Shown here piece after piece: positions 40 through 62,660 of a DNA stretch of 64,000 nucleotides (its first letter is position 1; every line of letters begins with the position of its first letter). The notes under the pieces were generated by a model. The model was not told the DNA's origin. It did not search any database and worked only from the letters and a program-made list of their open reading frames with translations. The position numbers were made by a program, and so were the translations under genes. The DNA lies in the NCBI GenBank assembly GCA_001972305.1, contig BDDD01000418.1, positions 201,490 through 265,489 of the forward strand, in the 5' to 3' direction. This DNA comes from Cephalotus follicularis (Eukaryota > Streptophyta > Magnoliopsida > Oxalidales > Cephalotaceae).

Positions 40-352
40 AGGTCGGCTGACGGGTGGGACCCGTCAGCTGACGGACCCCCAGGTCGGCTGACAAGATCAC
101 TCCGGTCAGCTGACGGGTGCAAGCACAGGTTTTTTATAGACGTCTCCAACACATCAGCTGACGGCATCCAGCTGTCGGCTGACACCCCCACACCTGTCGG
201 CTGACAGTCCCTACTGTCGGCTGACAGCTCACGCCCGTCGGCTGACAGAACCATCTGTCGGCTGACGGACCAGTACATCGGCTGACGGACCCTAACCGTC
301 GGCTGATGAAACTCCCCTTGTCGGCTGACGGTCACCACCCGTCGGCTGACAA
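40..352. repeat. GTCGGCTGAC motif array in LTR K
   Basis: About 14 copies of GTCGGCTGACGG or GTCAGCTGACGG occur at irregular spacing of roughly 16-30 bp, separated by unrelated short spacers. The core is a near-palindrome (GTCAGCTGAC is a perfect one). Because the spacers vary in length and sequence this is not a simple tandem repeat. It is the K version of the GTCGAC-core arrays seen in many LTRs of the window. Confidence 0.9.
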
Positions 353-2219
353 CCCCCGGACAAAACGGGCGCTTGTACACATACGTAGCACATAACACTA
401 CAAAACGAAGCACTTCGAAATATTTGACAAAACTCGTAACACTAATAACTCAAACTTGACAATATTGTACAAAGACCTTCACGTAACATCAATTACTTTT
501 TAGTAATGAAATATGCTTTAATATACAAAACTCTTTATATATGAAAGCTTGGCACTTTTACTGAAGGTTTTTGTGGCACTTGACTCAAAACACTATAACT
601 CTTGGCACTTGGCACTGTAGCACTTTTACTCAAACAAAAGTCCATAAAACAAAATATTTGATGAACCTTTTGACAAAACTCGTAGCTCTACTAACACTAA
701 CACTAACTCGAACTGACACTAACGACAAACACTAAAACTAACACCGGCATGACCAACGCACCGCCTCTACGGTCGCTACTGATCACCAGACCAGCTGAGT
801 CCCCGGTCCTCAACCGACCCACTGAATGACATAACACTGGACGAAGCACGGCAGGCCTCAGCCCCGGCTACAACCCTACATGCTGCAGCCCCGGTCCTCA
901 ACCGCTGCGAGAAGCATGGATGGCACATGGCACTTGGCACTTGGCACATAACACATCAGGAAACCTGAACAAACTCTGGCACGTAACACTGTAACACTGT
1001 GGCACCAAAGCCACTATAGCACTGTAGCACAAAACCGTATACGTATAGATATAAATATATATACGTAGCTCTATATCATACATGACGTAGTACGACGAAA
1101 GTATGAAACCAAAATAACAATAACACAACAAAAATACTGAAACCGGCTCACTCCTGTTTCCGATTGGGGGATGACAACGTCTAACTACGACGCAAAACCT
1201 ATAGCGGCCCGTACCGGCATAGCCTGTCACTACACTGCCTCAAAATACGAAATTCAAAAACATTTCGTAACATCGCTTGTACAACATGAAACCAAATACA
1301 TGATTACAAAACGATAACAACAACATAGTTGGAACCTAGTACGAGGCGAACACCCGAAAAATTGTACAATATGGCACCTACAACACCCTTAGTACGCCAT
1401 ACCCTGCGTACCAAGGCAAACAAAAGTCGAATATATATATTACGAAGGCGTTCTACTACAGACAAATTTTCAAAATTTAAAATAGCAAGAGACATATTCG
1501 ACCTATAGACAATTTAACGGTACAACATACAACAATTACGTTCGCCCCACACTGTCGTCACCATAGTCTCGTATATAGGTAAATATACGAATCGAACCTA
1601 TGATAGGAACCGTTAATTGTACAAAGGAGTTCTCTTGATTACTGTAGAAAGAATATCCTTGGATACCTGCCAGCATCTTCCGCGCCTTCCGCATCTGGAC
1701 ACTTACTCCTACAGGCTCCTACACTTACAACCTCCTCAGCCTCAAACACACACCCAACACAACCCAAAATGACATATTTATGCACATACACGTTCCAAAC
1801 TCACAATATAACATAAACATGCATTTTATTTCATCAAAAACATTTACAATTGAAATTATGTTGCAAAAGTGACTTCCCCCTACCTTAGAACACCAAGTTA
1901 GGAGTTGCAATCCACCTCTTTAAGCTTAAATCCGAAGCTCTTGCAACCCCAACACGATCAGCCACCTTCAACAAGCCCGAAATCCCACTGTCAAGCCTCC
2001 AAACTTTCGGTTTCAACACAAACCTCACAAAGCCTCAACACACACACACACTTCCACTCTTAAACTCCCTTAGATCACAAGGAAAGATGGAGGAAGAAGA
2101 GAGAAATGTTGTGTTTTAAGGAGAAAACCCCCGGCCCCTCCTCTGCCAAAACAAATAATGCCAAAACACTCTCCCATTTCTCATTTAAGGCAGAAAACAC
2201 GTGGGCTGTCTGGCGCATG

Positions 2220-2312
2220 GCAGTCGACTGCCTTGCTGGGAAGTCGGCTGTTTCTGCCGACACTCCCACCAGTCGGCTGCCTCCTCACGGCAGTCGGCTG
2301 CCCTTGCACAAA
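2220..2312. repeat. CAGTCGRCTG motif array near the 5' end of LTR K
   Basis: Four to five copies of the motif CAGTCGACTGCC or AGTCGGCTGCC lie within 93 bp, about 130-225 bp from the LTR terminus at 2444. The same relative position is used by arrays in the LTRs of F (20915-21060, 31500-31650), H (33690-33840) and Q (61520-61690). Confidence 0.85.
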
Positions 2313-2444
2313 AACACACAACAACACACTTTCTTGCAACACTTCAACACGGGAAAGAGGGAAAACACAATTCTCATTAACACAAGGTGTAAAATTACAT
2401 TGAACAAGTAATATTACACATAAATGAAAATCACGGGCGTTACA

Positions 2445-2514
2445 TATGATCCCACATCCATTCCGGGATAGGAAGCGATTGCAAAAGTCCCGAGGGCTTC
2501 TGATGCTCAGCCTT
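2445..2514 (-). pseudogene. Element A integrase, start of catalytic core (fragment)
   Basis: The minus strand encodes [13 protein letters not shown] followed by [10 protein letters not shown], the conserved link between the zinc-binding domain and the catalytic core of Ty3 integrases. It continues the fragment ending at 5384: the two were one gene before B1 inserted between CLTCRQV and VKAEHQ. On the other side it is cut by LTR K just before the residues that would hold the first catalytic aspartate (TMDF in the relative F at about 22270). Only 23 codons survive here. Confidence 0.85.
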
Positions 2515-2519
2515 CACCT

Positions 2520-5378
2520 TGTAACACCCCCGAACGGCGGGAGTCGTCACAGGTCGTAATACAGAATCTATCAAAACATAACATAACATATCTGAACATA
2601 AACATAACTTATCAGCCAAAACGTGGCGGTCATAGCATAACTGAAATCTTAAAAACTTAACAATTTCTGAAAACTTAAACATTTTCCAGTTCAAAACTAA
2701 AACATATGTTACTTATTGTTCATGACCACTAAACAGAAAACATAATGGGATCACACCCCTAGGGATCCGAAACATAAGGTGGTCATCTCTCGTTCACACA
2801 TTTCCCCGCTGCTCCTGATAACCTGCCGCATGGAAAACAAAAATGCGGCTGAGCAAACCTCAGTACGGATGAGGGAATTAAAACAGTAAATGATAAATTT
2901 TAAAAGCAGTAAGATTTCAATAAAATTCATAACGTAAATCTTAAGCGATTAAAAACAATTAAACATTTGTAAAGTCACATTTGTATTTTCATAAAATCCG
3001 TATAACTTTTGAAACATTTACAAAATATTTCACAACATCATATCACGATTCATAAGTCATACTGAGCCACATACATATCACATAACATATATTTGGCAAG
3101 GGAGGCACTAATTCCACATGCCCACTAGAATTGAAGTGTAGGGCACTACACAAGTCAATTCTGACATATCACATATCATATCACATATCATATACTAGAA
3201 TCGATTCATACACCTCTATCACATAACGAATCCATAAATCCACCTCATGGGATTTATTCATAACATTCAGAGATGCCGTAGACTAATCACCCCACTACGG
3301 AAGTGTCATGTCCCCGTGCCAGGCCTACGACATGCCTATGGTACGCCCCATAGGTGGGTACAATACTCAGTATTCAATCATTTCAAAAACATTGATTTAT
3401 CAAAATCAATTTAAAAACACATAAATATGCTTTCAAAAAACATATTTGAAAATCGTTCACAACGGTATCATAACATACATTTCATAGTCAAATCATCAAC
3501 TCATTTATACTTCGCTATAAAGAGGTGATCATAACATATCGTAACATATCGTATCATTTCGTATCATATGAATAAAGTCGGAATCATTTATAAATGTCAA
3601 AAACCAACTTCATTTTCAAAACATATCAAAACCATAAAACATTTCCAATTTCAATAAACGAAGAAGCATAGCAATAAGCAAAACTGATTTATTTTGATAA
3701 AATCATATGAGTGTATCAAGGAACGAAGTATCCGTACTTTAATCATAAAAAGTGAAACGGGATAGTTCCAATAAAATAAGATAGCCAAAGAGCAAAAAAT
3801 CCGTACCTTATGCGTTCAGAAAAGCACTTACGGATAGATGATCTAAATCAAACTCTCGTTGAAGCACAACAATCTAAAAGACACCCAAAACCATTCACAT
3901 AAGGGTCTAAGAAACATTAAAGACATTAAACAGACTTACATCAGTGTTCGGAAAAGACCCGGATCGATTCGAGGAATAAACGAATCAAAATAGTTGAAAA
4001 CAACACTTTTCTGGGCAAAACAGTCGACTGTTATAGAGCACCAGCCGACTGGGGAAGCTTGGTAGTTGACTAATCACAAGGGCCAGCCGACTACACAAAC
4101 CAGAATGCAGACAGTCGACTGTCACTTATATTCAGTCGATTACACAACCCAAGACAGTCGACTATGTTCATATGGCAGTCCACTACTCATCCAATCCAGC
4201 CGACTGTCCACACGAACATCCGACTGTTCTGGATGACAGAACAGCAGAAACTTGACAATTTCATACAGAAGCTGGTTCAATTGATTACAGTATTAAACCA
4301 GAGACACAAGGACATAAAGATATGACATTATATGACATTTAGGTGATACAGAAACACATAATTGGCAGAGAAACAGTTAGACAGTGGCTTAACTTCCAAG
4401 GAAAACAAGAACAACATTTAACAAATGCATACATATATGTCCAGATTTCTATCAATTATTATTTGCAGACTTTAAGGCCAGATTATGACAAGTCTAGGTG
4501 TACAAAACATGCTGACAAACTTACTAACATCATGACAGAACATATATACACGGGAAATCAAAACTTAAAGGACATTAAGAAAAAAACCAAAAACAAAGAG
4601 AAACAAATCATTACAGTGAATTTACTAACATGCAATGATTGTCCAAAACAAAGAAAACACAACAAGAACACCAAAATTTTACTGGTTAAGCAGCTGTGCA
4701 GAAGGGAAGCCAAAGAGAACCAAAAAAACAAGGAGATACATAACTATGCTTATCAAACTAGAAGAATTCAACCCAAAAGAACAACTAAAGGATTGAGATT
4801 ACCTCTTCACACTTGAGGAAACGATTTCACAACAGATTACACAGGCTTCACAGTATAACTTCGGCAGTGGCAATTAGAAGAAAAGAGACAACATTTAAAA
4901 AGACAATGTCTCTTACCATAAGGAAAAAGAGAGACAAGAATCTGACCAAGAAGGAAGAAAAGAGGATTTCAGGGAAGGAGAAAGGAAAGAAAGGTTGTTG
5001 TCGTGTGACATTGAAGAAGGGAGGGAGAGATTACGGGAAAAGAGAGGAAGAAATAGGAAAGAAATAAGAAAAAGAAGGAAAAAGGAATAAAGGAATTAAA
5101 GAATTAAAATAAAAGAAATTAAGGAATTAAGGAATTTTAAAATAAAATAAAAGTAATTTGTTTTAATAAAATAAGTTGGATAATAGTAAAATAAAATAAA
5201 AACCCAGACCCAACATTGCATTAACACATCCAAAATTCAGACTTGTATCAGTCAGCCCAAATCACATAGGCCAAAAACATAGGGCAACCGGACTTTTAAA
5301 ATTAACAAAATTAAAAAGCCTGTAAACAAACACATAAAAAGTCCGTAAAACACATTTACGAACATGCAGGGTATTACA
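2520..5378 (-). mobile_element. Solo LTR B1 (2859 bp), TSD CACCT
   Basis: The block starts TGTAACACCCCCG at 2520, ends GGGTATTACA at 5378, and is flanked by exact 5-bp duplications CACCT (2515-2519 and 5379-5383). It has no internal coding domains, no primer site and no second terminus, so it is a solo LTR. Its 5' end in element orientation is TGTAATACCC at 5378. The copy B2 in the opposite orientation (36606-41994) has the same ends and the same internal landmarks, for example around 2800-2870 and 3300-3360. Removing it rejoins the A integrase. The lysine-rich open frames at 4343-5067 lie in low-complexity sequence and are not treated as genes. Confidence 0.92.
4020..4235. repeat. CAGTCGACTG motif array in LTR B1
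   Basis: About eight copies of CAGTCGACTG or CAGCCGACTG occur in 215 bp, separated by 10-20 bp of variable sequence. Relative to the LTR 5' end (5378) the array lies at about 1140-1360 bp. The same array is present at the equivalent place in B2 (40450-40645). Confidence 0.9.
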
Positions 5379-9008: not shown

Positions 9009-10293
9009 TGAAATAAAACACTCTTGCAATATACAAGAGGGGGGTGTATTGAATATTGAAGTAAATATCAGAAATTTAAAAACTTTAAATGTAAAGAGTC
9101 AAGGAAAGAAAAACTTCTCCGAAATTTAGAGTGGTTCGGCTAGCTCTTGCCTACGTCCACTTTTCCCAAGGGAGCTCCTTGAGTTTCCACTATCTCGAAT
9201 TGATGAAGGCAGCAATTCGTTACACCTCACAATTTCGTGATTGACCTCAATCACAAGACCTTGACCTCAAGATCTTAGAGGATTCTCCTCTTTTACAAGT
9301 AATGATAAAAGTGTTTACAATATAACCTCTCAAATAGGTTGATATGAATAATACAGCTCTCAATATGAAACACTCAGAAAATCTGAAAGGATAAAGTTGA
9401 GAAGCTTGTTAGAACACTATTGAGCACTTTGAGCTTTTTGCACACTAGAATGCTCGGATTTGATATTTCTCTTGATGTTGTGTGATAGATGTGAATAATT
9501 CTGAATTCTTTATTTTCTTCTGAGGTTTCAATCTTCCTTTTATAGCCATAAAAGATTTGTAGCCGTTGCATAAATCATGGAAGCTTTTGATTAAAAAATG
9601 TGTAGTTGCAATCTTTGATTTTTGTCTCTGCTGACATAAAGACGTCGATGTCTTTCAAAAGGCGTCGATATCTTTATGGTTGATAGCCTTTGGAAGTGCG
9701 CGTACTAGCCGTTCCAGGTTTCCCGGGTCAAACCATTTTAAAAAGACGTCGATGTCTTTTTAAAAGGCGTCGATGTCATTTCTGGGAAATCTCTAGGTAT
9801 TGAAACTTTGAGCATCACATCGACTTCTTCTGTGGGAGTCGATGTATTTTCTGGGAAATGCAGGTAGCTCTAGAAACGCGTCGATGTCTACGGAAAGGCG
9901 TCGATGACTTTTGTACGGACGTCGATGTCTTTACTGATAAGCATCGATGCCATCATTGAAAACTGACCTGCAACTTTGGCACCTGAAGATGTCGATGTCT
10001 TCTTGAAAAGGATCGACTTCTTTCGTACGGACGTCGATGTCTTTGCTTGTAGGAGTCGATGTCTTCATGCAAAATTGACCTGTAACTTATGGCATGAAAG
10101 ACGTCGATGTCTTTTGGAAAGGGGTCGATATCTTTCTGTACGGACGTCGATGTCATTTCTTGAAAGTCGATGTCTTCTTCTGCATATGGTATTTTGCCTT
10201 TGTATTGAACTTGTGATTTCTTGCACATCAAGTAAATTTGTTAATTGCAAATATGTTATCATCAAAACAAGGATTGAGACTAAATCGTCAACA
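9009..10293 (-). mobile_element. Solo LTR J (1285 bp, copia/Sirevirus-like), TSD ATGGG
   Basis: The block is bounded by exact duplications ATGGG (9004-9008 and 10294-10298). On the plus strand it starts TGAAATAAAA at 9009 and ends GTCAACA at 10293, so in element orientation it runs TGTTGACGATTTAG to TTTCA. The phrase ttgatgataac near the 5' end and caccccccctcttg near the 3' end resemble Sirevirus-type copia LTRs; that lineage call rests on memory of the pattern. There is no coding sequence and no second terminus. It lies in the leader of A, between the primer site and gag. Confidence 0.88.
9640..10175. repeat. GACGTCGATGTCTTT motif array in LTR J
   Basis: About 18 copies of a GTCGATGTCTTT-like unit, often preceded by GAC or GGC, are spread over 535 bp. 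Larger phrases recur, such as gtacggacgtcgatgtc near 9915, 10025 and 10138. The array begins about 120 bp from the LTR 5' end. Its flavour matches that of the Ty3-type solo LTR G (27845-28180), although J appears to be copia-type. Confidence 0.92.
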
Positions 10294-10388
10294 ATGGGGT
10301 TACTAACGATAATACTCTACGTGAAATGCATGCAATGCATACCCCAAGATATCCCAAAAGAAAATGACAAGGAAAAGCTAAACCGATC

Positions 10389-15166: not shown

Positions 15167-15674
15167 TGTGAAACCCCGCTTTCGATAAACACACATAGAA
15201 GTGGTAAAGGTAATTAACATCAAGATTCAGCTTATGCAATTACCGTAAAATTTAAACTTTTAAACAAGATCTCAGTTGCAGAAGCATTAAACTCATAAGC
15301 TGAAAAAATATGTAACGTGTATCCCATATTGCATGCAACTCAATACAAGTCTATCATTGTTAAAAGCCCATAAACGGATCGTGATCCATGATACATTAAT
15401 CAGTAGCATCTAAAAGTCTAGTGAACCAAAAAATACGATACACAACACACAAAGGGACATAACCCCTGTAAAACATTATTAAAACTTGTACTTCATCCAT
15501 GCTGGTTCCCAAGCTGGTCCGCTGCATCAATCTGTAAAGTAGGGGGTTAGCCTTTGTCCCCACTCGGCTAAGTCATAAGAGTACTTTGGGATCAACATTA
15601 CATGCATGTCATGAAATGTATGCGTAGATGATGCAGTGCAGTAGAAAATATAAGTTTATATATATATATATATA

Positions 15675-16065
15675 TATAGCAGAGAATGTGGTCTGCTCGG
15701 TGCTCTTTAAGCAGTACACAATTGGGCGCTAGTCTTTTCTATGCCTTGAAGGACTGGTCTACTCAGCACGCATGAGACTAGTATGGTCGGCAACCTTATG
15801 GACAGGTCTGCTCGGCATGCATGGACTAGTCTACTCGGTGACCTTATGGACAGGTCTGCTCGGCATGCATGGACTAGTCTGCTCGGGAGCGCTAGATTGG
15901 CTCCACGTTAGTTTCTTCTCTAAGTACTATTCAAGTACTGAGCATTATTACCTGGCTAACACAAGAATTTGATATATATATATACATACCCATTTATCAA
16001 CACATCAACCAAAATCCTAACACCTATCCAATCATAATCTAACAAACAAAACAACCATAACAATA
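15675..16065. repeat. Extra segment in F 3' LTR with 48-bp tandem repeat
   Basis: The 5' LTR of F passes directly from the tatata run into gaaaaaatatataag (29585-29605), whereas here about 390 bp intervene. The left part carries a 48-bp unit (ccttatggacaggtctgctcgg at 15794 and 15842) and several CTCGGCATGCATGG / GCTCGG words. Similar CATGC-CTCGG words are frequent in LTR P1 (42740-43550). Either it was lost from the 5' LTR or gained here; both copies are flanked by TA runs, which could mediate a deletion. Confidence 0.7.
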
Positions 16066-16864
16066 TATATATGAAAAAAGATATAAGTTAGCAGTATAGT
16101 AAAATAACAGTAGGGACATATATATGAAAATATATGTATGAACCAATAGTACAGTGGTAGCTCGGCCAGAGCTACATCAATAGGCACAGTAATGTCCGAA
16201 TAAGACCAGCAAATAGTATAGTATGTCCACAAAGGGACTAAAAAATAGGCAGGCAGTATGTACAACGCCGCCAACTCCTGGCCCCACGTTGCACTTCGAC
16301 TTCGGTCCCTTCTCCAGGCAACCAAGCAAGACAACAGTACAGTACAGTGAGTTACCCAGCCAACTCATGTCTCCTAGGTGAACCTTGCCACTAGCCAACG
16401 CTGGCAGTATTCGACATGCAACTAGTGGCTCAAGCACAAACACATAAAATTCACAGAGCAAACAGTGAATAGTCACAGTAAACTGTGCAGTAAACAGTAC
16501 AGTAATGATCGTCAGATCAACAACAGGAAGTTTATTTAAAATATTTTCGAAAGTCATAAATATTTGAAATATGTATTTCCAGTAGTGGAAAATAGTTTTA
16601 AACAGTTCAGTAGGTGGAAATCGGTTTCCTAGTTGTTCAAAAATATGTTATTATCAAATATCTATTTCGTACTCAAAATAGTCATTTTCAGTTTCACATG
16701 TGCATTTCTAAATTAACATAGTAATCTAGAAATCATAAGCAGTTTATAATCAGTCAATAAACAGGCAGTAAACGGTACATATGCAATGCATACAGAAGCC
16801 CTAATGCATCCTAATCGGAGTCGGGATCATGGCGCATCATTTTAAGCAAGAGAGGCCCAATCAG

Positions 16865-16985
16865 CAGCTTGGCAGACGACTGGATTCTTCACCAGTCGGC
16901 TGTTCTGGGTAATCAGTACATGAGTAGTCGGCTGGTTCCTTCTACCAGTCGACTGTTCATCAGGCAGTCGACTGTTATCCTTCAA
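16865..16985. repeat. CAGTCGRCTG motif array in F 3' LTR, left part
   Basis: Five to six copies of AGTCGGCTG or CAGTCGACTG lie here in 120 bp. The array continues at 19990 on the far side of solo LTR D. The unsplit version is at 30405-30680 in the other LTR of F. Confidence 0.88.
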
Positions 16986-16986
16986 C

Positions 16987-19923
16987 TGTAACACCCCCGA
17001 TTCGGAACCGGGATCACTCCCGATTCGGAATCGGTGTGTCACACAAAACTTAACTAAAACATATCAAAGATCTTAATCTTAATCTTAATCTTAATCTTAA
17101 TATTAATCATTATCAATACGTGGTGGTTCTAAAAATCTGAAAACATGTATAATCATGGAACATAACTGAATCTGAAACATTATATGAAAACTTTGTCATA
17201 AACCAAAATGTCATAATCCCAAAAATCACAATACTGTTTAGATAACTGGCCTATACACGACCATAACACTACTAAAAACATAACCGAACCAATCTCCTAG
17301 ATGATCCTTAAACATAGGTGACATCTCGCTCATCACACATTTCCCGGATGTTGTCCCAGAATACCTGCCGCATGGAAAACAAAACACGGCTGAGCAAACC
17401 TCAGTACGGATAGAGAATCATAAAACATAAAACGATAATTTAAAAGATAAAAAATACCTGAATCTTTAAATATCATATGCCTTATGCATAAAATAATTTA
17501 ACATTATTTTCAAAAGCGAAGGTAAGTAGTCATTCAATGAATTCAAAACAAATATCCAATTTTCAAAACATTGTTCAAATTTCAAAACATAATCCAAGTT
17601 CAAAACCAAATCTAAATTCAAAACAGTATCCGAATCAAACGTTCAAACTACTTTAACGTCAGCCAAGTTAAAGATTTCAAAATAAAAACTTATCCGATTC
17701 CATAATCTCATCATAGAGATCCAAACATATAACAGAGACTTATCCGATTCCATAATCTCATTACCGAGATCCAAAGTGCATACATATGTGCATAGGTGCA
17801 AGGGGTTCATGAGGCCCACATGCCAAACGGAAAGATGTGAATGGCACTACACAGTCAATCCCCAGAATCCATATCCTTAACATAACATATAACGAGAGTC
17901 GACCCATACGCCTCTATGACACATATCGGATCCATAAGTCCACCTCATGGGACTTATTCATAACATAGAGAGACGCCGTAGTCAAATCACACTGCTACGG
18001 AAGTGTCATGTCCCCGTACCAGGCCTACGACATGCCTATGGTACCTCCATAGGTAGGAAATATCTTTGTGTATATCCTTATTTCAAAAACATTGCTTTAT
18101 TTCTAAAAACAATTTAAAAATGTAAACAAATTTTCTGAACATTTTCTGAACATAGCAAAATCATTACATAGCATCAACTCATTTATTTTCCACTGTAAAG
18201 AGATAATCGTATCATACATAAAGTCAAGAACATTAAATTCGCAAAATGTCAACTGACTTTTATTTTCAAAATCGTATTGAATCATAAAACCTAGCCCAGT
18301 TCATAAAACAGAAGGAATCACATTTGAATTCATTTCAGTAAAACCGTAGGAAGAGACCAAGAATGAAGAATCGGTACGTTATCCATAAAGTAAAGCTTTC
18401 TTTTTACTATAAAAACAGTAGGAGGGTATCAAGGAACGAAACATCCATACTTTAATCATAAAAAGTGAAACGGTATAGATCCAATAAAATCAGATAGACA
18501 AAGAGCAAAAAATCCGTACATTTCAACAAACAGATTCGATTAAGATAAAACCGAATGATAACTAAAACAAAGAATCCAGATTTTATTCTCAAAACAGAAC
18601 TGAATTTGTGCTCTAATAAAATCAGTAAGAGTGTATCAAGAAACGAAGATCCATACCTCATGCAATCACCAAAATAACCTTAAGAATATAAATCGAGACT
18701 TCTCTAGACCGCTCCTCGGCTGTTGCAAACATCTAACAGAAATAAAATCGTTCTCATAAGGACTTGAAATAAAACCAGACCTCAACTCATGTGTCATTGT
18801 ACACAGATCATAACCATATAAGATAATAATTGGTTTGTTAAGTCTAATTCGCAGAAGTCTCATCTAAATATAATTTCGAATTCGCTAAGGTAAGTCCAAT
18901 TTGTCCAATTCATCCAATTTTGAATCATAATACTAGTTCAGCTCATAATATCGTAAAACGATTACATAAATACATAATTCAACCAAAAACAGAATTCAAC
19001 AGAGTAGGGTTCAGAGTTTACCGAAAGCAGACGGAATAGATAACAGAGCCATAATCACACCGCGGAATCGGAGAGGATCACACCTATGCGGAGAACGGAG
19101 TTGGAAACTGTCAAAAACGTATCACCAGAGACTGCCGCGCGTACGCTCACGCGCCGCCACTGGCCGGCTCGTGTCTGTCATGCACGGTCGACCAGTAGCA
19201 GTGAGGGTCAGATCCGGAGCATTTGAGGCCAGGGATCACATATCCGGGGAACGTTTGCCACAATGCTGCCGTATTTGGCCGGAACGAAGACATTTGACCG
19301 TGGTTGACTTTGCGTCGATCTGCTTTTCCGGCGTCGCCAAAGGTCGGGGTTGGTCGGGTTCGCTTCCTTTGGACGCCAGGATGCCGAATATGTGATTGTC
19401 TTGTCGTGACGATCACCGAAGATGGAGCTATGGCGTTCGACAGTGGCAGGGACAGAAGACGTCGCGCACGCCGATTGGGCCGTTGGCCAGTGCAGGGGTT
19501 GGGTCCGGTGGACTTAGGAGGTCGTGGGGGTTCAACCGGTGCCTTCGCTGGTGCCATATCAGTACCGACACAGACGGCAGAGGTAGAGAGGGGAGAGAGA
19601 ACGAGAGAGAGAGAGAGAGAGGGTGGCGGGGAGAGAGAGAGGGAGTGGGAGAGAAAACAATTTTTAATATAAAAGTAGGGTTTTTTTAAATGTTTAAATG
19701 CTGAAATTGAGTTTTAACAAATAAATAAAATGCCAAAAAATGTTTTATTTAATCATGGACTTAATATCAAAACCCACTAGGCTAAGGCCAAAACCCGCTT
19801 AGCCTAGCCAAAAGCAAAACAAACCGAAAAATGGGCAGTCCACATACCGAAAAAAAAATCAACAGCCCATACGAAACATATCGAAAAACCCTAAAATTCT
19901 ACACGGAAAAGCGGAATATTACA
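16987..19923 (-). mobile_element. Solo LTR D (2937 bp), TSD TCAAC
   Basis: It starts TGTAACACCCCCG and ends GAATATTACA, flanked by exact TCAAC duplications (16982-16986 and 19924-19928). The 5' LTR of F near 30500-30530 gives the corresponding uninterrupted site. It is related to the B family: the block with gtccccgtaccaggcctacg (18009-18028) and the ctgccgcatggaaaacaaaa block (17365) occur in B1 at 3311 and 2823. It has no CAGTCGACTG array. A GC-rich, CpG-rich block lies at 19080-19570, and a (CTTAAT)n run at 17077-17106. Open frames in the GC-rich block overlap on both strands and are not credible genes. Confidence 0.92.
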
Positions 19924-19989
19924 TCAACAGTCAACTATTTCAGTTGAGCAATTTAAGAAATCGTTAAGATAATACTTCCTGCCATTTTC

Positions 19990-20095
19990 TGGATAGGATA
20001 TCGCAAGCACAGTCGGCTGTTTTCCTTCGACAGTCGGCTATTTCGGTTGAGCAGTCTGTTGTCTTCCTTCGACAGTTGACTGTTCTGCGAAACCA
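19990..20095. repeat. CAGTCGGCTG motif array in F 3' LTR, right part
   Basis: Four degenerate copies (ACAGTCGGCTGTT, ACAGTCGGCTATT, CAGTCTGTTG, ACAGTTGACTGTT) continue the array interrupted by D. They correspond to 30590-30680 in the 5' LTR. Confidence 0.85.
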
Positions 20096-20914
20096 GTTAC
20101 ATGCAATCCAATATATATCACTCAAACAGATCATTGTAAGCATCCATATATATTCTCAAGATAGAATATCATCAATCAGTATTCAAAAGGTTCATAGAAC
20201 ACAACAGTAAACATGCATTTTATCCAGCAATTCAATACCAAGATAAAACTCAACATGCATGTACATGAACTCAAATGATTCTCAACAGTAAGCATGACAT
20301 GCGAAAAAACCAGTAGTAACCATGGCGTAACAACTGAACATCATAGCTCATACAAGCAGGCAACCAGTCATAGGACATTCAATAATCTTGAGCTCAAAAT
20401 ACAAACATAACTTCCCCTATCTTTTGATTTCAAGTTAGGAATCTGTAAGTCCACCTCTTTGTGTTCCAATAGTGACGTTTTGATCTCCCCAGATGCTTTA
20501 GCTGCAAATACAGTAGCTCCAACCCATCACGTCCAAACTCCTCTTGGTTCAACAATTTGAGAATCTCTCTCACTTTCTCTCATGATTCTCCACTGTTTCT
20601 CTTTGTAATTTCTCATTGGTTTCTTTCCTTGCACGCACTGGGCGAGAGAGATGAAGAGGATAGCGTTTTATGCAGGTGGTTCTCTCTCTCTTTCCTCCAA
20701 CCCATTTCCCATGGCACTAAATGCCATACCCTCTCATATCTGCATGCACACACACACATGACTGATTCTCCCTATCCCATGTCTTGCATGGTGCACAGGT
20801 GTTCACTCTTCCCTCATTATGGGCCGCATGATGCACAGATGGCACACCCTTTCTCCTTGTCAGTCGTTGCATGTGATCTCATCACATGCAACAATACAGA
20901 GCATAAACGAGCCG

Positions 20915-21060
20915 ACTATTCTTTCCCTCCAGTCGGCTGTCCTCTTGGATGTGGTTTCCAGGTGGCTTGACAGCCCTCCAGTCGGCGGTTCGTCACACCA
21001 GTCGACTGTTCCATTAAACGGTCCACCAATCGGCTGGTCTATTGCACCAGTCGACTGCCC
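20915..21060. repeat. CAGTCGGCTG motif array near the 5' end of F 3' LTR
   Basis: Five to six copies (for example CCAGTCGGCTGTC, CCAGTCGACTGTT, CCAGTCGACTGCC) lie 150-300 bp from the LTR terminus at 21211. The other F LTR has the equivalent array at 31500-31650. Confidence 0.88.
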
Positions 21061-21211
21061 CCGTCAATATTTCAAGAATCATACTTCTAAGTGTTTTGAT
21101 TTGATTTGCGAATCAAAATATTATCCGGGAAATTTATCTTTATCATCAATGTAATAACAAGATTACATTTGCAATTTAAATATTACAACGTATGAATTCC
21201 CGGGCGTTACA

Positions 21212-39489: not shown

Positions 39490-39710
39490 GCGTCAACTCT
39501 TTATATCCAAGCGTCGACGGTCACAACCTTTACCTGCGTATTTCACCTCTATCCCGACTAAAGCGCTGACGCTTTCTTACAAAGCGTCGCTGCTTTATGT
39601 CTCCTCCAGGTCAACTGACACACTTATCTTCATAGCGTCGACTTTTACATTTAAAGCGTCGACCGTTACTACCAAAGCGTCGACGCTTTAAGTGGGACTG
39701 TCGGCGCTTT
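39490..39710. repeat. GCGTCGACGCTTT motif array in LTR C
   Basis: Eight or nine copies of AGCGTCGACGCTTT or degraded forms (AGCGCTGACGCTTT, AGCGTCGCTGCTTT) lie 206-426 bp from the LTR 5' end at 39916. Confidence 0.9.
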
Positions 39711-40449
39711 AGACAGTTTTCCGTCTCCACTTAGACAAATTAAATTTTCTTCAGGGCGCACTGCCCCCCGAACCCGTGCCCGCTGTCCGGGCAGCGGAAC
39801 CCCCGTACTCCCCGAGCGTAGGGTCATACTACGGGTCCCTTGAAATATTTTCCAACTACACAATAGCAATCATCTTTCCATAATTAATATCCTTACTGGA
39901 AATTCGGGTCATCACATTAATCCTTTTTGTCTTATTTTGAGTTGAATTCGTTTAGTTTGCTAAGTTTATCCTTGTTTTTGGTTTTCTTTTGGTTTTGGTC
40001 TCTTTGCCTCTGTTTTTGTCACAACAGATTGTGTGTTTGTCTCCTGCAAGTTTCTGTGTCCTTAACATCATTACAGGTTAGTAGATTCGTCCCCTTTAAT
40101 GATAGTTTTGTTTCAATGGCTTACTTTGAGTTTTTGTGCTCTTGGTGTCTTGGGGTCTTTGATTCTTGTCTAAATGTGTTATCATTGTGTTTATATGATT
40201 GTCAACACATTTTGTACTCATATATGTGTCATAAACTTGTATTACAACATCTGCAATCTATTAGAGATAGAATTTGGACATATACATCCATTGTTTTCTT
40301 GCTTCCTTTTGTAAGATAAATCACTGTCAAGTTGTTTCCTTTTCAAATTTGTGTTTGTAAGTCACCTACAGGTCATATATGGTCATATGTTTATGTCCAT
40401 ATGTCTCTAGTTTAATGTAGAAACCATTTGAAACATTTTCAGTAGCAAA

Positions 40450-40645
40450 TCGTCGGATTTCCAACTATTCTGTTGCCCAGAACAGTCGGTTGTCTCTGTG
40501 GACAGTCGGCTGGAATGGTTGTGTAGTCGACTGGAGGGATGAACACAGTCGTCTGCCTGCACTTTTAATTGTGTAGTCGACTGCCAAGCCTCCCCAGTCG
40601 ACTGCAGCCCTGTTTTAGTCGACTGTTTTGCACTGGAATGTGCTG
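40450..40645. repeat. CAGTCGACTG motif array in LTR B2
   Basis: Seven to eight copies (ACAGTCGGCTGG, GTAGTCGACTGG, CCAGTCGACTGC, TTAGTCGACTGTT) occur here. After subtracting C the array is 1120-1316 bp from the LTR 5' end, matching B1. Confidence 0.9.
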
Positions 40646-42299
40646 TTTTCAACTGCTTTGATTCGTTTGATCCCCGAATCGGTCCGAATCTTTTCCAAAC
40701 ACTGTTAAGAGTCTGTTTAATGCTTCTGATGTGTCTTAGACTCTTACACGTATGGTTTTGAATGCCTTTTAGATTGTGTGCCTCAACGGAGAAATTGTTT
40801 TTGATCGCCTATTCGTAAGTACTTTGTGAGCGCATAAGGTACGGATTTTCTGTTCCTTGGCTATCTGACATTCAAACTGAAACTGTTTTGATAAGCATCT
40901 TCGTTTATGAAATCAACGATGTTTCATGATTTTGATACGTTTCGAATTTAAAGTTGGTTTGACATTTTAATTGATTCCGACTTTATCTATACAATATGTT
41001 ATGGTATGATATACGATATGTTATGACATGATATGTTATAATACCGTTGTGAGCGGTTTTTGAATATGTTGTGTGAAAACATATTTATGTGATTTAAGTT
41101 GATTTTGATAAATCAATTATTTTAATTTAAATACTGAGTATTGTACCCACCTATGGGGCGTACCATAGGCACGTCGTGGGCCTGGCACGGGGATGTGACA
41201 CTCCCGTAGCAGTGTGATTAGACTACGACGTCTCTGAGTGTATGAACAGATCCCATGAGGTGGATTTGTGGATCCGCTATGTGTGATAGAGGCGTATGAA
41301 TTGATTCTAGTTTATGTGATCTGAGGTGAATTCAGATATGTGATCCGAGGTGTGATCGGACATGTGTATGTGAGAATTGACTTGTGTAGTGCCGTACACT
41401 TCAATTCTAGTGGGCATGTGGAATTGGCGCCTCCCTTGTCGAAATTATGATATGTGATATGCATGTGACTCAGTATGATCTGATTTAAGAATCGAAAATA
41501 ACGTTTTGAATTATTCCGAAAACATGCAATTGTTATTTAAATATGAATAAACTGCCTTAACTGTTTAAGATTTCTGTTACGTTATTATTGAAATATTAAT
41601 GTTTTTAAATTACCGTTTACGGTTTTATCTCCCTTATCCGTACTGAGGTTTGCTCAGCCGCGTTTTTGTTTCCATGCGGCAGGTTTTCAGGAGCAGCGGG
41701 GCAAAGTGTGATTGAGTGATGACCACCCTATGTGTTGGATCCTTAGGAGAGTGATCCTTATGTTATGTTTAGTGGTCAGGAACATGGAATATTATGTTTT
41801 TATGTTTTATGTTTTAAATTGGAACTGATTTATGTTTTGAGTTTTCCGCAACTGCATAATATGACAAATGGTTAAGTTTTAATGTTTTGATAAGACTGCC
41901 ATGTTTTTGGCTAATAAAGTAAACTTATGATTTGTTAAGTTATGTTACGTATGATATGACCCTGTGATGACTCCCGCCGTCCGGGGGTGTTACACATACA
42001 TTCCATCAATTCATTTCAGTCATTAACAGTCACTCGTATCACTCCTCGACTTTCCTTGCTTAGGGAGGAGCAGAGATCGCGCTCCAGACGTTAAGGCTAG
42101 AAACCCGAGGTGGGCAATAATACATTCCTTAGGCAGACTTGGTTCCTCAGACTCCTCGGCTTGAGGAAGAGCATATACGGGCCCTAGGCATTGAAGGTAG
42201 AGGAGAGGAACATTCACAATTACATTTCCCTTGGTCAGACCTTAGCCCTACATTTAACATTACACTATATAGTAACATTCTTAACATTCATTCCGTGCA

Positions 42300-49935: not shown

Positions 49936-50597
49936 TTCAGACCAGGGTGCTTAGAGGAACAAACAAAATTTTTTTTAGATCAATTAGCTACGGAAGTAAA
50001 TCCTCTAAACACCCAGTTAACAGGTCCAATTCAGAGAAATACAGGTCAAGGAACACCCACATCAATAGCATAATTGAATAGAACATCACACATGCAGGCT
50101 TATGTGATGAACATGGCAACACAGAGAAGAACACGAGGTCATACCAAAAGTGATGGATCCTTCATCTTTGCCACTACTTGCTTGAGAAGACTCACATTGA
50201 TTATTCAAGATTTTAGTTCATTCTCCAAGATGAAACACAGCAGCTCCAAGCACAAAGTTCTTAAAATGTCAATAGCCGTTTTTCTCCAAGAATGAAGTCT
50301 CTGTTTTTCTAATTGACTATGCTTACTAAGGGAGCATTGAAATTGATAAAGGTTGTCAATGAAAATCCACCCTAGGTTAGCTTCAAGCTCGGTAAACAAA
50401 TCAGTGAAGGGATACTGAGAGTGAAAAATGCTACCTCTAAGCTTTGGCACTTTGTTCACTGTTTTGACGTAATTGTCACACACTCGCGCACAACTCCTCT
50501 CTTGTTTCTTTTATGCAGTTTTCTCTAGGATTACCAATCTCCATGATGTTGACGTGCTCCCCTCGTTTCTCTGTGTAGGAGAAAATGGCTAGGAGTG
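49936..50597. other. Unassigned stretch with a 92-codon minus-strand open frame
   Basis: This 660-bp stretch matches no LTR or coding domain that I can recognise. The minus strand at 50205-50483 has a frame that looks protein-like in composition (leucine- and glutamate-rich, with HSQLEKQRLHSWRKT and ELLCFILENEL) and could be an exon or a transposon domain fragment. On the plus strand 49864-50295 has two further frames. There is no start context, splice evidence or family match, so no function is assigned. Confidence 0.35.
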
Positions 50598-50994
50598 TGT
50601 AATTCCCCGAAATTACATGTAATTGTTGTGTGTATATATATATATTATTGCATAATTATGGGCTGTATATTGTTTTCCCTTTTATTGGGCCAAACATTGT
50701 GAAATGGACAGTAATAAGGCGTGTTTTGGAATATGCTACCAATAAACAAAATATAATTGTGGCAATGGGACCCAAGTCTTAATAATTTGCTAAAAGAGAC
50801 AAAGGAACTGTTTAGCATAAGAATGTGTTATTTTTAATGATATATTTGTTATATTTTTATGTTTGGAATAGACTACTGCTATTGTGTTTGATTGATTTTC
50901 AAGAACAAGAGTCAAAAGATTAAATTGCATGAAGAATGGTTCAAATTGATGAAAATAAAAGACAAAAGTTCAAATTTGAAGAATTTGCACTGAA

Positions 50995-51420
50995 AGCGTC
51001 GACGCCTTCAACATAAGCGTCGACGCCTAACTCTTAGCCACTGGCGATTTCAAAGGAAGCGTTGACGCTTTACACTTCATCGTGGAACAAGTTTGCGGTC
51101 TCATCATTTTCTTCAACACCAATTCTTTTGGTGTCAACGTGTTGGAAATTTAATGTTTAGACGTCAATGCCATGATCAAGTCATCAATGCCACAAATGCA
51201 CAAATCAAACATTAGCTTAAACGTTAAGGTGCAATGAGGAAGATGTCAATGCCATGTTAAGTGACGACGCCTTGCTTGTAAGTGTCGACGCTTAACACTT
51301 TAATTAAATATTCCAGTTGACACTAAACATCAACGTTAAGCGCATCTCAGCACAACAGTTCAAAGCGTCAACGCCTACGAGCATAGCGTCGACGCTTACG
51401 GCTTATCGGGCGACAAAAAA
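50995..51420. repeat. GCGTCGACGCTT motif array in N, first copy
   Basis: About 15 copies of AAGCGTCGACGCCT, AAGCGTTGACGCTT and degraded forms occur in 425 bp, starting about 190 bp from the proposed LTR start. Confidence 0.9.
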
Positions 51421-51639
51421 CAACAATTTTCAAAGATTTAGCATATTTTAATATTTCCTTTTCTCGATTAATTAGGTTAAAACTTTATTTCCTTTTCTTT
51501 TTACATGTTATTGTAAGTATAAATAGAAGAGGCTAGGTCACAAAACTAAAGGACAAGCTAGTGACAAGGGTTGCCTCCCTCTTAGCCACCTTCCTCTTCC
51601 TTTAGTTTTTATAGTTTATTTTCCATGGCAGTGCTCTAT

Positions 51640-52060
51640 CAACGCCTTGTGTTGACAGTTGACACTCTCATCTGTCTGTCGACGCCTTGAAAGTGCAGGG
51701 GACACTTTGAGAGTGCTCTGTCGATGCCTTGGCTAACTGCCAACACTTTAAGATTTCTCTGTGGACACTTAATGAAATCAGTTAACGCATTGTGGTTGAA
51801 TCAGTCGACGCGATATGTCTTTCTTGGTGTTCCGTGCGCTAATGAGCACAATGCGTCAACGTGCAACATTAGCGTGCACATAGCACATCGTTGCACAATG
51901 CTGTATTATGACGTAATGCGTTAATGCGAACATAGAATCTGTCAACACTTAAAGGAAATGGGCGAACGTGTCAACACTTAACGTTCAAGGACAACATGGC
52001 AGACTAGCGCTAAGCGTCAATGACTTGCATGATGGAGTCAATGCCTAGATCCCCAGTGTC
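51640..52060. repeat. GTCGACGC motif array in N, continuation
   Basis: A second, more degraded array holds words such as TGTCGACGCCTTG, AGTCGACGCG and GTCAACACTTAA. Most differ from the palindrome by C-to-T or G-to-A changes. It follows the TATA-like and pyrimidine-rich stretch at 51500-51620. Confidence 0.8.
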
Positions 52061-52489
52061 ATCCAAAATGAACTATTTTACATGGGTTTCAATCCCACAT
52101 GATTCATAATACCAAGTCCTACAGAAGGGCTTTGTAGTTGAAGACCCATAGCGTCTCAAACTCTACTCACATTGAGGTGACTGTGAGGACAACAGTTAGT
52201 ATATGGACGGAAATTGTGAATTGATAGCATATGGATGGGAATAGTGAATGGATGGCATACGGATGGTGATTGTGAGTGGCTATAGTATACTATTTAGCAT
52301 AAAAATGTGTTATTTTTAATGAGATATTTGTGATATTTTTATGCTTGGAATATACTACTTTGGTTTTTCTTGTTTGAGTTTCAGGTGCAAGGCTTTAAGG
52401 ATTCAAAGTGCATAAATACTAGTCAAAGTGGCACAAATTGAAGACAAAAGATCAAAGCTTGCAGAATTGGCTAAGCTGTGCAAATTACA

Positions 52490-52700
52490 TAGCAAAGCGC
52501 CGACCCCTACATTTAAAGCATCGACGCTTACATAACAAAGTGCCAGCAGTTTAATTTAAAGGGTCAACGCTTAAACATTCAAGTCAACTTAATAATGCAA
52601 CATATCCGCCGACGCTTACCACCCTCACAATATTAAGGCGCCAATGCTAAAGCATCAAACTGTCAACGCTTTCAATATAAGCGTCGACAAGAACAAAAGT
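52490..52700. repeat. GCGTCGACGCTT motif array in N, second copy
   Basis: Eight or nine copies (AAAGCGCCGACCCCT, AAAGCATCGACGCTTA, AAGCGTCGACAAG) lie 200-410 bp from the proposed LTR start at 52291, the same relative place as in the first copy. Confidence 0.88.
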
Positions 52701-53069
52701 GGAAAGTTTTGATTTTTGCACTGATTGTAATTAGGGTTGTTTTATTTCCATTTTTTATCAGCTTTGTAAGTATATATACAATAGGAGGCTGGCTAAAATA
52801 GCCTATGTAGCCACCTTCTTGCTCTATTTTCTGATTCAATTTAGTTTTTAGTTTATTTACAAAATTTAGTAGCTAAACTTTTAAGGTTGTTGGGTTAGAT
52901 CAAAGCCTAGATTGTATTGCTTCAATTCCATTAATAAAAATCCTTGAAATTTTGATTTGTTCTTCAATTTTTTGCCTTCACACACACTTTGTCTCTCTGA
53001 TTAAAATCCACAAACATCTTGTCAGTGAATAAGAACGTTGGTGAATAAATGGTGTTCAACGCAATCAAT

Positions 53070-53225
53070 GGTGTCTACTCATACGGTTTGTCACGTCGAA
53101 CACACTCCGCATAGACCTAGCATGTCTACTCATACAATCTGTCACCGCTGTCATACTCTGTATAGACCTAGCATGACTACTCATATGATTTGTCATCACA
53201 GTCACACTCCGTATTGACTTATCTA
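53070..53225. repeat. 51-bp tandem repeat in N, second copy
   Basis: Three copies of a 51-bp unit begin with gtctactcatac at 53073 and 53124 and gactactcatat at 53175, each followed by tgtcac and agacctag words. Copies are moderately diverged. Confidence 0.85.
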
Positions 53226-53670
53226 CTGCTGGTTATCAAGGTTTGATCGTTCAAGTAAGTGAATTGTTCAACATAATCTATGGTGAGTTTCTATACCCTA
53301 AAAGAGCTTTTATCTAGCATATTTCACTTTGTTTATTTGCTGCTTTGATTAGTTTTTCAGTTACTTGTTTATTTCAAGTTAGTTTTCAATATCAGTTCCC
53401 ATAACCATCGACGCCTTGCAAAAGAGCATCGACGCTTTTGTGTTTTGTTTAGTTTATGTTGACCACTATAAATTGTTTGCATCTCTCTCTCCCTTACTCT
53501 TTTATTTAATTGTAATTTATTTTTATAGTTTGATTGCTTTTAATTGATTAGAGTAATCTGTTTGAGTGTTTTTCTATCTTGCTTAATCTTGATCATTAAA
53601 ATTGAAAAAGGGTATTCTATTTCCGTATAACCTATTCACCCCCCTCTAGGTTGCTATTAATGGACCTTCA

Positions 53671-58449: not shown

Positions 58450-58765
58450 TTAAACAGTCGACGATTTATCTTAAGCGTCGATGGTTATATGTTAAGCTTC
58501 GACGCTTTTGTCGATGCTTTGCATAATGCTCCGCGCTTTTTACTTATGCATTGAAAGTTTACTCTACACCGTCAGCGCTTTAGTACAGAGGGTCATGTGA
58601 AACCATAATCGTCGACAATTTTCTCAAAATGTCAGTGCTTAATGATTAAGCCCCGATAGTTTACAGTAAACTGTTGGCGCTTAGTGCTTCCATGCGCGTT
58701 TTATCCTGAGCGATAAATCTACCTATCGACGGTTTGCTCGAAATTGTCGATGGTTAGACGATTGC
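58450..58765. repeat. GCGTCGACGGTT motif array in the M leader
   Basis: About 12 copies of a GTCGAC-type word (AGTCGACGATTT, AAGCGTCGATGGTT, AAGCTTCGACGCTTT, ATCGACGGTTT) occur in 315 bp, about 105-420 bp inside the element from the primer site. In other elements here the array lies in the LTR, so M differs. Confidence 0.85.
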
Positions 58766-61304: not shown

Positions 61305-61307
61305 GTT

Positions 61308-61319
61308 TGATATCAGAGC
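61308..61319 (+). other. Primer-binding site of element P3
   Basis: The plus strand reads TGATATCAGAGC, one mismatch from the Met-tRNA complement, three bases after the LTR. The internal region is visible only to about 61359, where LTR Q begins. Confidence 0.8.
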
Positions 61320-61519
61320 TGGACTATTCCGGATACGCCAGGATAGGGTGTGTATGCATTGTAATAATTTAATTGCCGATGTAACCTTATCATGGAATTA
61401 ATTAGAATAATGAAATTCCTAACTTTGATGATGTTTTCCAAACTCTAATGATGTTGATTTTGGAATAGGAATGTTAAAGTATTGTTAAAAGTGCAACTAA
61501 AATAAAACGGCACAGTTTT

Positions 61520-61690
61520 GGGTTAAAAGCGTCGATGCCTTTCGAAAAGCATCGACACCTACATAGCAATGATGCACACGTGAACCATGCACATGCACGT
61601 TGACGCCTGCTAACGACGTGGACACTCTTTAGGTAAAATGCTATAGGCGTCGATGCCTGCATGTAAACGTTGACGCTTTATATTGTGATT
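61520..61690. repeat. GCGTCGATGCCT motif array near the 5' end of LTR Q
   Basis: Six copies (AAGCGTCGATGCCTTT, AGCATCGACACCT, ACGTTGACGCCT, GGCGTCGATGCCT, ACGTTGACGCTTT) lie 160-330 bp from the LTR start. Confidence 0.87.
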
Positions 61691-62449
61691 CTGATATGCA
61701 CAAACAGCAGATTGACGTTTCGCATGGTGGCATGATTGTGCCACTCATCAATCATCTTGGGAGGCACTTTGGGGACGTGTTATGCATGCAATATGACGTT
61801 TGACTTTCCAGGACAGAAAAGGAACTAAAGGGAAGGGACATGTAATCATCCATGACCTGGGAGAAGGAAGAAATGGACACATGTTGCATCAGGTATGCAA
61901 GAGAGAGAGAAATGAACTGTTAGGTGCATGGAAGTGAAACAAAATGGGAAATGGCATAAAGTCAGCTCTCTCACCTCACTCTCATATGTTACTGAAAGCC
62001 AGAGAGTTTAGAGACATTGTGAGTGACAAAGGAGAGCAGAAAAATTAGAGAGAGGAAGCCCAACCACCATTGTTGAGCAAAGGAAGCTTGGAGCTTGGAC
62101 AACGACTATTGAGACGAACCAGGGAACCTTCAGGCCGAACCTGGGGACTCAAAGTGACTGATTGGATACTAAAAGAGGCAAACTTTCGGCTTCTAACTAG
62201 AAGCCAGAGGTAGGGGAAGCCATAATTGTATTTTGTGTTCAATATTTGGTGTTTGATGAGTGATGTTTATGCATAGATTGCATGGCCAGCTGCACTATTT
62301 TTAATAACTAAATGGATGAAATTTTGTACTGGATGTGTAATACGATGTTGCATGTCAGCTTTTCGGGCTTAATATGTGCTGGTTTACTTGTTGTGGGGTT
62401 GGAAATGTTACTGTTTCGTCCTGTCGCGAGGAAGAAGACGACTGATGCT

Positions 62450-62660
62450 TGAAAACGATGATGCCTTCTGAAAGCATCGACATTTTGTACTATGAACTGC
62501 GTTTTATTTACTGAATGCATTTTTAAACGTCGATGCTTGTGGGAGAAGACATCGAAACCTATGGAACAGAAAGTACTGACGGCAAGGATCGAGCGTCGAC
62601 GCTTAGAGGATATAAGCGTCGTGCCTAAGGGAAAGACGTCGACGCTTTAGAGTCCTGTTT
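62450..62660. repeat. GCGTCGACGCTT motif array in LTR Q
   Basis: Seven copies (AGCATCGACATTT, AACGTCGATGCTT, GAGCGTCGACGCTTA, GACGTCGACGCTTTA and others) lie 1090-1300 bp from the LTR start, the same place as the second array of H and F. Confidence 0.87.

Follow-up and report, generated by a model that had tools for sequence, protein, structure and literature searches.

Retrotransposons of the window and their palindrome arrays

The 64,000-nucleotide stretch of Cephalotus follicularis DNA analysed here (assembly GCA_001972305.1, contig BDDD01000418.1, positions 201,490 to 265,489 of the forward strand; hereafter the window) has a GC content of 41% and consists of nested long terminal repeat (LTR) retrotransposons piled upon one another. 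LTRs were mapped by self-comparison, termini, Pfam domains and target-site duplications (TSDs), the last mostly by eye, and bear our own letters (Table 1), which are not those of an earlier preliminary description of the same stretch. No tRNAs were found in the window, nor any known RNA family at gathering score. Twelve LTR segments (M, K, J, B1, B2, G, H, C, K'', N1, N2 and Q) and one leader-like stretch contain clusters of a near-palindrome with the core GTCGAC, GTCGGC or ATCGAC. The preliminary description had placed such clusters in at least nine LTRs and a leader, which is borne out, with the ATCGAC core added, except for K', an LTR of the K group that has no cluster.

The arrays are genuine, and their motif greatly exceeds chance expectation. 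In 100 dinucleotide shuffles of the window GTCGAC, present 45 times, is expected 5.7 times (maximum 14), while five related cores, present 143 times in all, are expected 32.6 ± 6.2 times (maximum 53). The motif is not equally dense outside the LTRs, the case that the preliminary description had set against itself: 114 of the 143 cores lie within LTRs, at 3.60 per kb against 0.90 per kb elsewhere, and six of the 29 non-LTR cores make up the leader-like array (58457–58746). Site forms are about 10, 14 and 18 bp long (CAGTCGRCTG, AAGCGTCGACGCTT and AAAGACGTCGATGTCTTT) and fall into the three flanking flavours described earlier, CAG..CTG, GCG..CGC and GAC..GTC, to which one array of LTR M adds a TGTCGGCTGACA variant. 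Invariance of the core across aligned flavour sites is not informative, as the sites were picked by core; likewise the window arrays were outlined with the motif already known, so that ratios of arrays to the rest are circular for GTCGAC and serve only to compare core variants. Within arrays these are ATCGAC (42), GTCGAC (38), GCCGAC (35) and ACCGAC (2, with 12 outside arrays). The pattern RYCGAC is the DRE/CRT site of CBF/DREB factors; clusters of such sites were rejected as a simple account, ACCGAC not being enriched.

The bases flanking the core share its dyad symmetry. In 250 kb of independent loci, described below, the 2 bp to the left and right of GTCGAC complete the palindrome at 57 of 140 sites, against 23.4 expected and a maximum of 40 in 1000 shuffles. 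Among seven comparison cores in the same sequence, TCGA, itself nested in GTCGAC, has the same flank excess, which is absent for CTCGAG, GAATTC, CATATG, GATATC, GACGTC and GCATGC.

Spacing of the sites

Spacing had been described as irregular, and this proved wrong. With degenerate sites admitted and two small two-site intervals omitted (27103–27116 and 53407–53428), 75 of 120 neighbour spacings in the window are in phase, that is at 21, 42 or 63 ± 1 bp, against 13.4 ± 3.4 (maximum 24 in 300 runs) for random placement within the same spans. Core pairs 20–22 bp apart number 43, compared with a mean of 0.05 in dinucleotide shuffles and with 6.1 (maximum 16 in 2000 runs) when sites were jittered by up to 15 bp with their clustering preserved; under the same jitter the 23 pairs at 41–43 bp compare with 6.2 (maximum 16). 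Alignment of the arrays of K and K'' requires gaps of 42 and 21 bp, so that the phase has been kept between them. Coding heptads (21 nt being seven codons) are not favoured as the source of the spacing, since spacings of 20, 22, 41 and 43 bp break the frame.

Neighbouring spacers are unrelated within a flavour, in agreement with the preliminary description. For the 26 pairs of sites exactly 21 bp apart, 49 of 156 spacer positions are identical, against 50.8 (18.6 + 16.0 + 16.2) when partners are shuffled within flavours and 40.8 when they are shuffled across all flavours. Spacers are kept between homologous copies, two copies of J being 94.3% identical, any gaps between them shorter than 5 bp.

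Element families carrying the arrays

At E values up to 1e-4, B is homologous to Q, G and H, and K to K' and K''; J and N1/N2 lie outside these two groups, and M and C match no other LTR of the window outside their arrays. The few matches between groups (G with J, C with N2, B2 with K) fall inside arrays, and in this comparison of the window LTRs no homologous segment beyond the arrays was found between groups, which was the other case that the preliminary description had set against itself. The carriers had been presented as unrelated, which stands for J, N, M and C but not within the B and K groups.

Group B is Ty3, as gag, protease, RNase H and integrase domains lie at 21389–25388 between B1 and B2, and is presumably a chromovirus. 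J is a Ty1-copia LTR, its genomic relative (loci L154 and L155) having the LTR, a TGGTATCAGAGC primer-binding site, RVT_2 and SH3_retrovirus (L155). J may itself be a Sirevirus; when multiple polypurine tracts upstream of the 3' LTR were sought, two GGGGGAG tracts were found in 1.5 kb of L158. N is Ty3 through a relative (L156, L157) with TGGCGCCGTTGC, Retrotrans_gag, RVT_1 and rve, and presumably belongs to Athila.

No superfamily could be assigned to the K group, M or C. K does not belong to the Ty3 pol beside it, its flanks being those of a solo LTR inserted with its TSD inside that pol; K and M both interrupt this one Ty3 pol remnant, which therefore says nothing of their own superfamily. 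A genome search with LTR M gave 40 scored copies. K'-like elements at L132 and L140, which like K' are devoid of clusters, show TGGTATCAGAG following the LTR, but the LTR copies of L132 enclose no open reading frame of at least 90 amino acids, for which reason the K group is left unclassified. The K'-like LTRs of L132 (1869–9996) stand about 5.8 kb apart, in what resembles a non-autonomous element. K' itself, a solo LTR, sits within the palindrome array of B1 (16856–20085).

In all, four or more LTR groups carry arrays, and outside these no homology was found between them: two groups are Ty3, one is Ty1-copia and one is unclassified. The earlier statement that Ty3 and copia elements both carry them holds through B and J, although J is the sole Ty1-copia carrier found, N is read as Ty3 and K, M and C are unassigned.

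The whole genome and independent loci

In the 1.58-Gb assembly containing the window, CAGTCGACTG has 197,377 copies against 939 for the reversed word, and GCGTCGACGC has 73,186 against 121. Distances between CAGTCGACTG copies, measured start to start, are quantised genome-wide: there are 37,144 pairs at 20–22 bp and 20,934 at 41–43 bp, the bins expected from the phase, and 7,867 at 27–30 bp, the other bins counted holding 12 (15–17 bp), 236 (23–26 bp) and 60 (35–38 bp). The 27–30 bp class has a shared word of its own: among 33 spacers of 27–28 bp pairs from the listed places CACGCA occurs in 13 and GCATCA in 12 (shuffled maximum 6), although descent from a few families could explain this too. 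In 29 spacers of 21-bp pairs the commonest word, ACAGGG, occurs in six (shuffled maximum 5). The word CACGCATCA or a relative is frequent in spacers of genomic CAGTCGACTG pairs 27–28 bp apart, perhaps as a predicted second binding site between two palindromes.

An independent sample of 20 loci of 10 kb, picked by contig number, contains 336 cores and 75 pairs at 20–22 bp, with at least one such pair in 15 of the 20 loci. When all 6-mers in these loci were ranked by their excess of pairs at 20–22 bp, with no preselection of the motif, the top 13 were pieces of the palindrome motif. With five further loci (25 loci, 250 kb) there are 45 clusters of at least three cores with gaps of at most 75 bp, spread over 16 loci, and three of these clusters (L139:9491, L148:6645 and L153:1184) resemble chance; 86 of 169 within-array spacings are in phase, a figure without a null. 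The clusters show a modest proximity to array-masked homology to the window LTRs, 26 of the 45 lying within 700 bp of it against 36% of random positions, with the families of this window as the only reference. At L139:784–1058 there is an array made of a repeated block, with its sites about 30 rather than 21 bp apart.

Viral contigs scanned with the RNase H piece of the window gave no relative confirmed by tblastn, and in a scan of the same kind of contigs for GTCGAC triplets no plant LTR array was recognised among at least 120 stretches listed; among the matches listed, eight came from loci below 48% GC, and some are exact tandem repeats. One viral contig locus (L095, 51% GC) has 12 GTCGAC in 0.85 kb, with spacings of 22, 19 and 20 bp and unrelated spacers.

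Position relative to presumed promoters

In the Ty1 relative of J (L154) the sites at 289–810 lie 105–626 bp upstream of TATAAAAGG (TATA at 915), and in the Ty3 relative of N (L156) sites lie at 155–569, upstream of a TATA at 670, and again downstream at 1303–1374. B2, H and Q have in common GCATAAA at sense positions 545, 517 and 576, which we read as a putative TATA-like box; it is preceded by their distal arrays at some 230–430 bp and followed by their second arrays at about 0.5–0.9 kb. The arrays lie upstream of TATA-like boxes, and both Ty3 groups have a further set 0.5–0.9 kb downstream. Two phased sites also occur at L154:117–142, just 5' of the start of the J LTR in the Ty1-copia relative and outside the LTR.

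Table 1. LTRs and palindrome arrays of the window (positions within the window; in phase, spacing of 21, 42 or 63 ± 1 bp)
Feature	Position	Strand	Remarks
LTR M	1..2444	-	Begins (5') at 2444, cut off by window start; superfamily unassigned; outside its arrays, no match to other window LTRs
LTR M proximal array	42..346	-	TGTCGGCTGACA variant; 13 sites; 11/12 spacings in phase
LTR M distal array	2221..2302	-	CAGTCGRCTG; ~140–225 bp from LTR start
Solo LTR K	2520..5378	-	TSD CACCT; within Ty3 pol remnant; own superfamily not established
LTR K array	4021..4225	-	9 CAGTCGACTG-type sites; 7/8 in phase
Solo LTR J	9009..10297	-	94.3% identical to LTR of Ty1-copia element elsewhere in genome; possible TSD CCCAT by eye
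LTR J array	9641..10175	-	16 GACATCGACGTC-type sites at threshold used; 10/15 in phase; upstream of TATAAAAGG near 9545
LTR B1 (Ty3)	15168..21208	-	Interrupted by solo LTR K'
LTR B1 proximal array, left piece	16856..16976	-	2/4 in phase
Solo LTR K'	16989..19923	-	In B1 array; TSD TCAAC by eye; no cluster of its own
LTR B1 proximal array, right piece	19924..20085	-	3/4 in phase
LTR B1 distal array	20909..21057	-	150–300 bp from LTR start
LTR B2 (Ty3)	25949..31802	-	Interrupted by solo LTR G; primer-site-like TTGTATCAGAGC after 3' end
Solo LTR G	26421..29563	+	TSD GCAG by eye; homologous to B/Q/H
LTR G array	27847..28170	+	GACATCGACGTC flavour; 5/7 in phase
LTR B2 proximal array	30400..30667	-	CAGTCGRCTG flavour; 4/7 in phase
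LTR B2 distal array	31518..31645	-	1/3 in phase
LTR H	31803..33981	-	Homologous to B/Q/G
LTR H proximal array	32655..32983	-	GCGTCGACGC flavour; 3/10 in phase
LTR H distal array	33699..33830	-	1/4 in phase
LTR K'' (K group)	36606..41996	+	Interrupted by solo LTR C
Solo LTR C	37200..39915	-	TSD TTAAT by eye; superfamily unassigned; outside its array, no match to other window LTRs
LTR C array	39489..39713	-	AAGCGTCGACGCTT flavour; 21-bp spacing among last four sites
LTR K'' array	40482..40627	+	5/6 in phase; 42- and 21-bp gaps when aligned to K array
LTR N1	50594..52288	+	184 bp (77%) in common with N2; boundaries approximate
LTR N1 array	50996..51395	+	Upstream of TATAAATA near 51518; 4/6 in phase
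LTR N2 (Ty3 by genomic relative)	52289..53460	+	End set where most genomic matches stop
LTR N2 array	52495..52695	+	Upstream of TATA box near 52772; 3/5 in phase
Second N2 array	53405..53436	+	Two sites 21 bp apart, ~635 bp downstream of TATA box; same layout in L156
Leader-like array	58455..58753	-	Primer-site-like stretch near 58890 by eye; 3/6 in phase
LTR Q	61380..63951	+	81–86% identical to B in 3' half; TGGTATCAGAG at 63957; 5' end approximate
LTR Q distal array	61527..61680	+	GCGTCGAYGC; upstream of GCATAAA; 2/3 in phase
LTR Q proximal array	62472..62650	+	1/4 in phase; strong B homology begins ~30 bp after array

Other repeats of the window include a direct duplication of 0.7 kb with 87% identity at 56419–57834, close to a copia gag remnant, and near-perfect tandem repeats unrelated to the palindrome, of 31 bp at 28761–28890 (LTR G) and 42 bp at 39114–39343 (LTR C). 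The stretch 42300–49800 has no palindrome clusters, and repeats of the GGTTCAGCTC..GGTGACCC type lie near either end of it.

Interpretation of the arrays

We consider it probable, if by no means assured, that the arrays act in cis as binding sites of a homodimer by which transcription of the LTRs is controlled. Each palindrome of 10–18 bp would be the site of one homodimer, and neighbouring sites two (or four) helical turns apart would set the bound dimers on the same face of the DNA, where they could cooperate; bound in this way, presumably by one factor or factor family in all groups, the arrays would probably raise transcription from the presumed promoters or hold them open. The regular spacing is the strongest evidence for a dimeric-factor site, and the weight that we give to binding arrays follows from this spacing together with the presence of both Ty3 and Ty1 carriers. 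The preliminary description had proposed that several families acquired a binding site for a dimeric factor. Its argument from irregular spacing fails, while the dyad symmetry, the helical-turn spacing, the proximity to TATA-like boxes and the occurrence in Ty3 and Ty1 families without other homology found speak for the proposal itself; as a whole, its observation is partly confirmed and its interpretation partly supported.

Several results weigh against this interpretation. Phase is poor in both arrays of H, the proximal array of Q and the distal array of B2 (Table 1), and the 27–30 bp class corresponds to a non-integral number of turns, about 2.7. For the 3-bp flanks in the 250 kb the palindromic count (20 of 140 against 9.2) just equals the shuffle maximum of 20, and in the window alone the 2-bp excess (17 of 45 against 7.9) stays below the maximum of 18. 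Genome counts are inflated by family amplification and do not represent independent events. K' has no array, which means that the array is not essential. H has two further CATAAA words, which makes the promoter assignment uncertain, and some arrays lie downstream of the presumed start, which is unusual for a simple enhancer.

A wider proposal, for which we would claim only a tentative place, is that a single dimeric factor of the host, or a few related ones, acts as a common transcriptional gate for several unrelated lineages. Phased arrays would have arisen independently, flanking the promoter on one side or on both, and would have drifted together among the three flavours as the specificity of the factor changed, in a cross-superfamily arms race or co-option that has left some 200,000 exact copies of one flavour. 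Were one factor to serve every group, much of the retrotransposon load would be under a shared switch, and this would offer a handle on the joint expansion of lineages in one host. The two-turn spacing rule gives a direct, testable prediction of a cooperative DNA-binding dimer, and the palindrome with its 21-bp autocorrelation is a cheap signature with which to scan other genomes.

It is rather unlikely that the arrays are instead functionless, decayed minisatellites, in which a unit of about 21 bp was multiplied by slippage or unequal exchange and the palindrome is a remnant of the ancestral unit. Such an origin would fit the gaps of 42 and 21 bp between K and K'', the larger duplicated blocks within arrays (about 112 bp in J, and the repeating block with a site spacing of about 30 bp in L139) and the excess of spacer agreement over the all-flavour shuffle. 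That excess vanishes in the same-flavour comparison, which leaves no residual similarity within a flavour; moreover, LTR groups for which no other homology was found have this core and period in common, the 27–30 bp class carries shared words of its own, and a dyad would not survive decay.

We also hold it unlikely that the arrays are anti-silencing elements, that is CpG-rich sites for a sequence-specific factor that would remove or block methylation, by analogy with VANC in VANDAL elements, which are DNA transposons. CpG is present in every core, its ratio of observed to expected occurrence is 0.70–1.02 in the LTRs against 0.55 outside them, and the CpG-decay form GTTGAC/GTCAAC is enriched in arrays (25 against 22 in tenfold more other sequence). 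The flavour differs between the related LTRs B and Q, much as VANC targets are described to differ between related VANDALs (PMC5735166). However, the VANC21 motif as given there, YAGTATTAY, is not palindromic, and the VANC factor is encoded by the element.

We find it quite improbable that the arrays work as hairpins, in RNA or in single-stranded DNA, for instance as sources of small RNAs for host silencing by analogy with maize Sirevirus LTRs. Six arrays folded as RNA gave z values of -1.56 to -4.23 against dinucleotide shuffles, and the maize palindromes are described as small-RNA hotspots (PMC5311732); but arrays of palindromes outfold shuffled sequence whatever their purpose, hairpins do not need quantisation at 20–22 bp, and the array of J lies upstream of its TATA box and so presumably outside the main transcript.

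The movement of array cassettes between families by recombination, bringing a ready-made enhancer, had been the other suggestion of the preliminary description. Similarity beyond 16-bp motif blocks was tested in eight array pairs by shuffling the spacers 200 times. Of the six informative pairs, three show slight extra similarity (reached in 3 of 200 shuffles for G–J, 1 of 200 for C–N2 and none of 200 for C–H) and three show none (K–B2, 90; N1–H, 20; Q–N1, 31 of 200); K–K'' and Q–H, at 0 of 200 as expected of homologous LTRs, are uninformative on transfer. B and Q, 81–86% identical over their 3' halves with strong homology starting within about 40 bp of the proximal array, differ in flavour (CAGTCGRCTG in B, GCGTCGAYGC in Q), and the GAC flavour is common to G, of a Ty3 group, and to the Ty1 LTR J. 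With no flanking segment found in common between groups, and with G–Q and H–Q, which are less alike than B–Q, aligning through part of the array, we judge such transfer very improbable.

Comparison with known systems

The closest known counterparts of the arrays are the palindromic repeated-motif (RM) boxes of Sirevirus (Ty1/copia) LTRs, described as a high-copy symmetric motif clustered in the LTR upstream of the TATA box (PMC2829016). These boxes form CpG islands in many elements, which have little LTR homology to one another, and the motif varies by element; those listed include CGGTCGACCG (Vitis) and ACAATCGATTGT (Tnd-1), and all except that of Tnd-1 hold CGG-CCG (PMC2829016). Like RM boxes, the window arrays consist of multiple copies of a palindrome clustered in the LTR, upstream of TATA in the relatives of J and N and in the distal arrays of B2, H and Q, and the J element resembles a Sirevirus in its Ty1/copia pol. 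They lack the CGG-CCG signature, having instead the core GTCGAC with its GTCGGC and ATCGAC variants, although the Vitis motif holds both. RM boxes were reported to be confined to Sireviruses and missing from the ‘classic’ elements compared (PMC2829016), whereas B, with its Ty3 gag-pol, and N, with its Ty3 relative, are not Sireviruses. In the part of that article available to us, six words for spacing occur only in reference entries, and in the literature searched, largely titles and the openings of abstracts, we recognised no report of such arrays in Ty3 LTRs or of helically phased LTR palindromes. The palindromic regions of maize Sireviruses belong to one lineage and are described through small-RNA mapping (PMC5311732).

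A different parallel is offered by the targets of VANC, short motifs accumulated as repeats in the noncoding DNA of Arabidopsis VANDAL elements, which vary between related VANDALs and of which those of VANC6 occur also in the unrelated AT9TSD1 (PMC5735166). They share with the window arrays a short repeated motif in noncoding DNA of mobile elements and a target that varies between relatives; they differ in that VANC is encoded by the element and the motifs given are not palindromic. From RM boxes the window arrays differ in their Ty3 carriers, their position on both sides of the presumed promoter and their two-turn phasing, and palindromic LTR boxes, described as a speciality of Sireviruses, appear here in two Ty3 groups, one Ty1 group and at least one that is unclassified.

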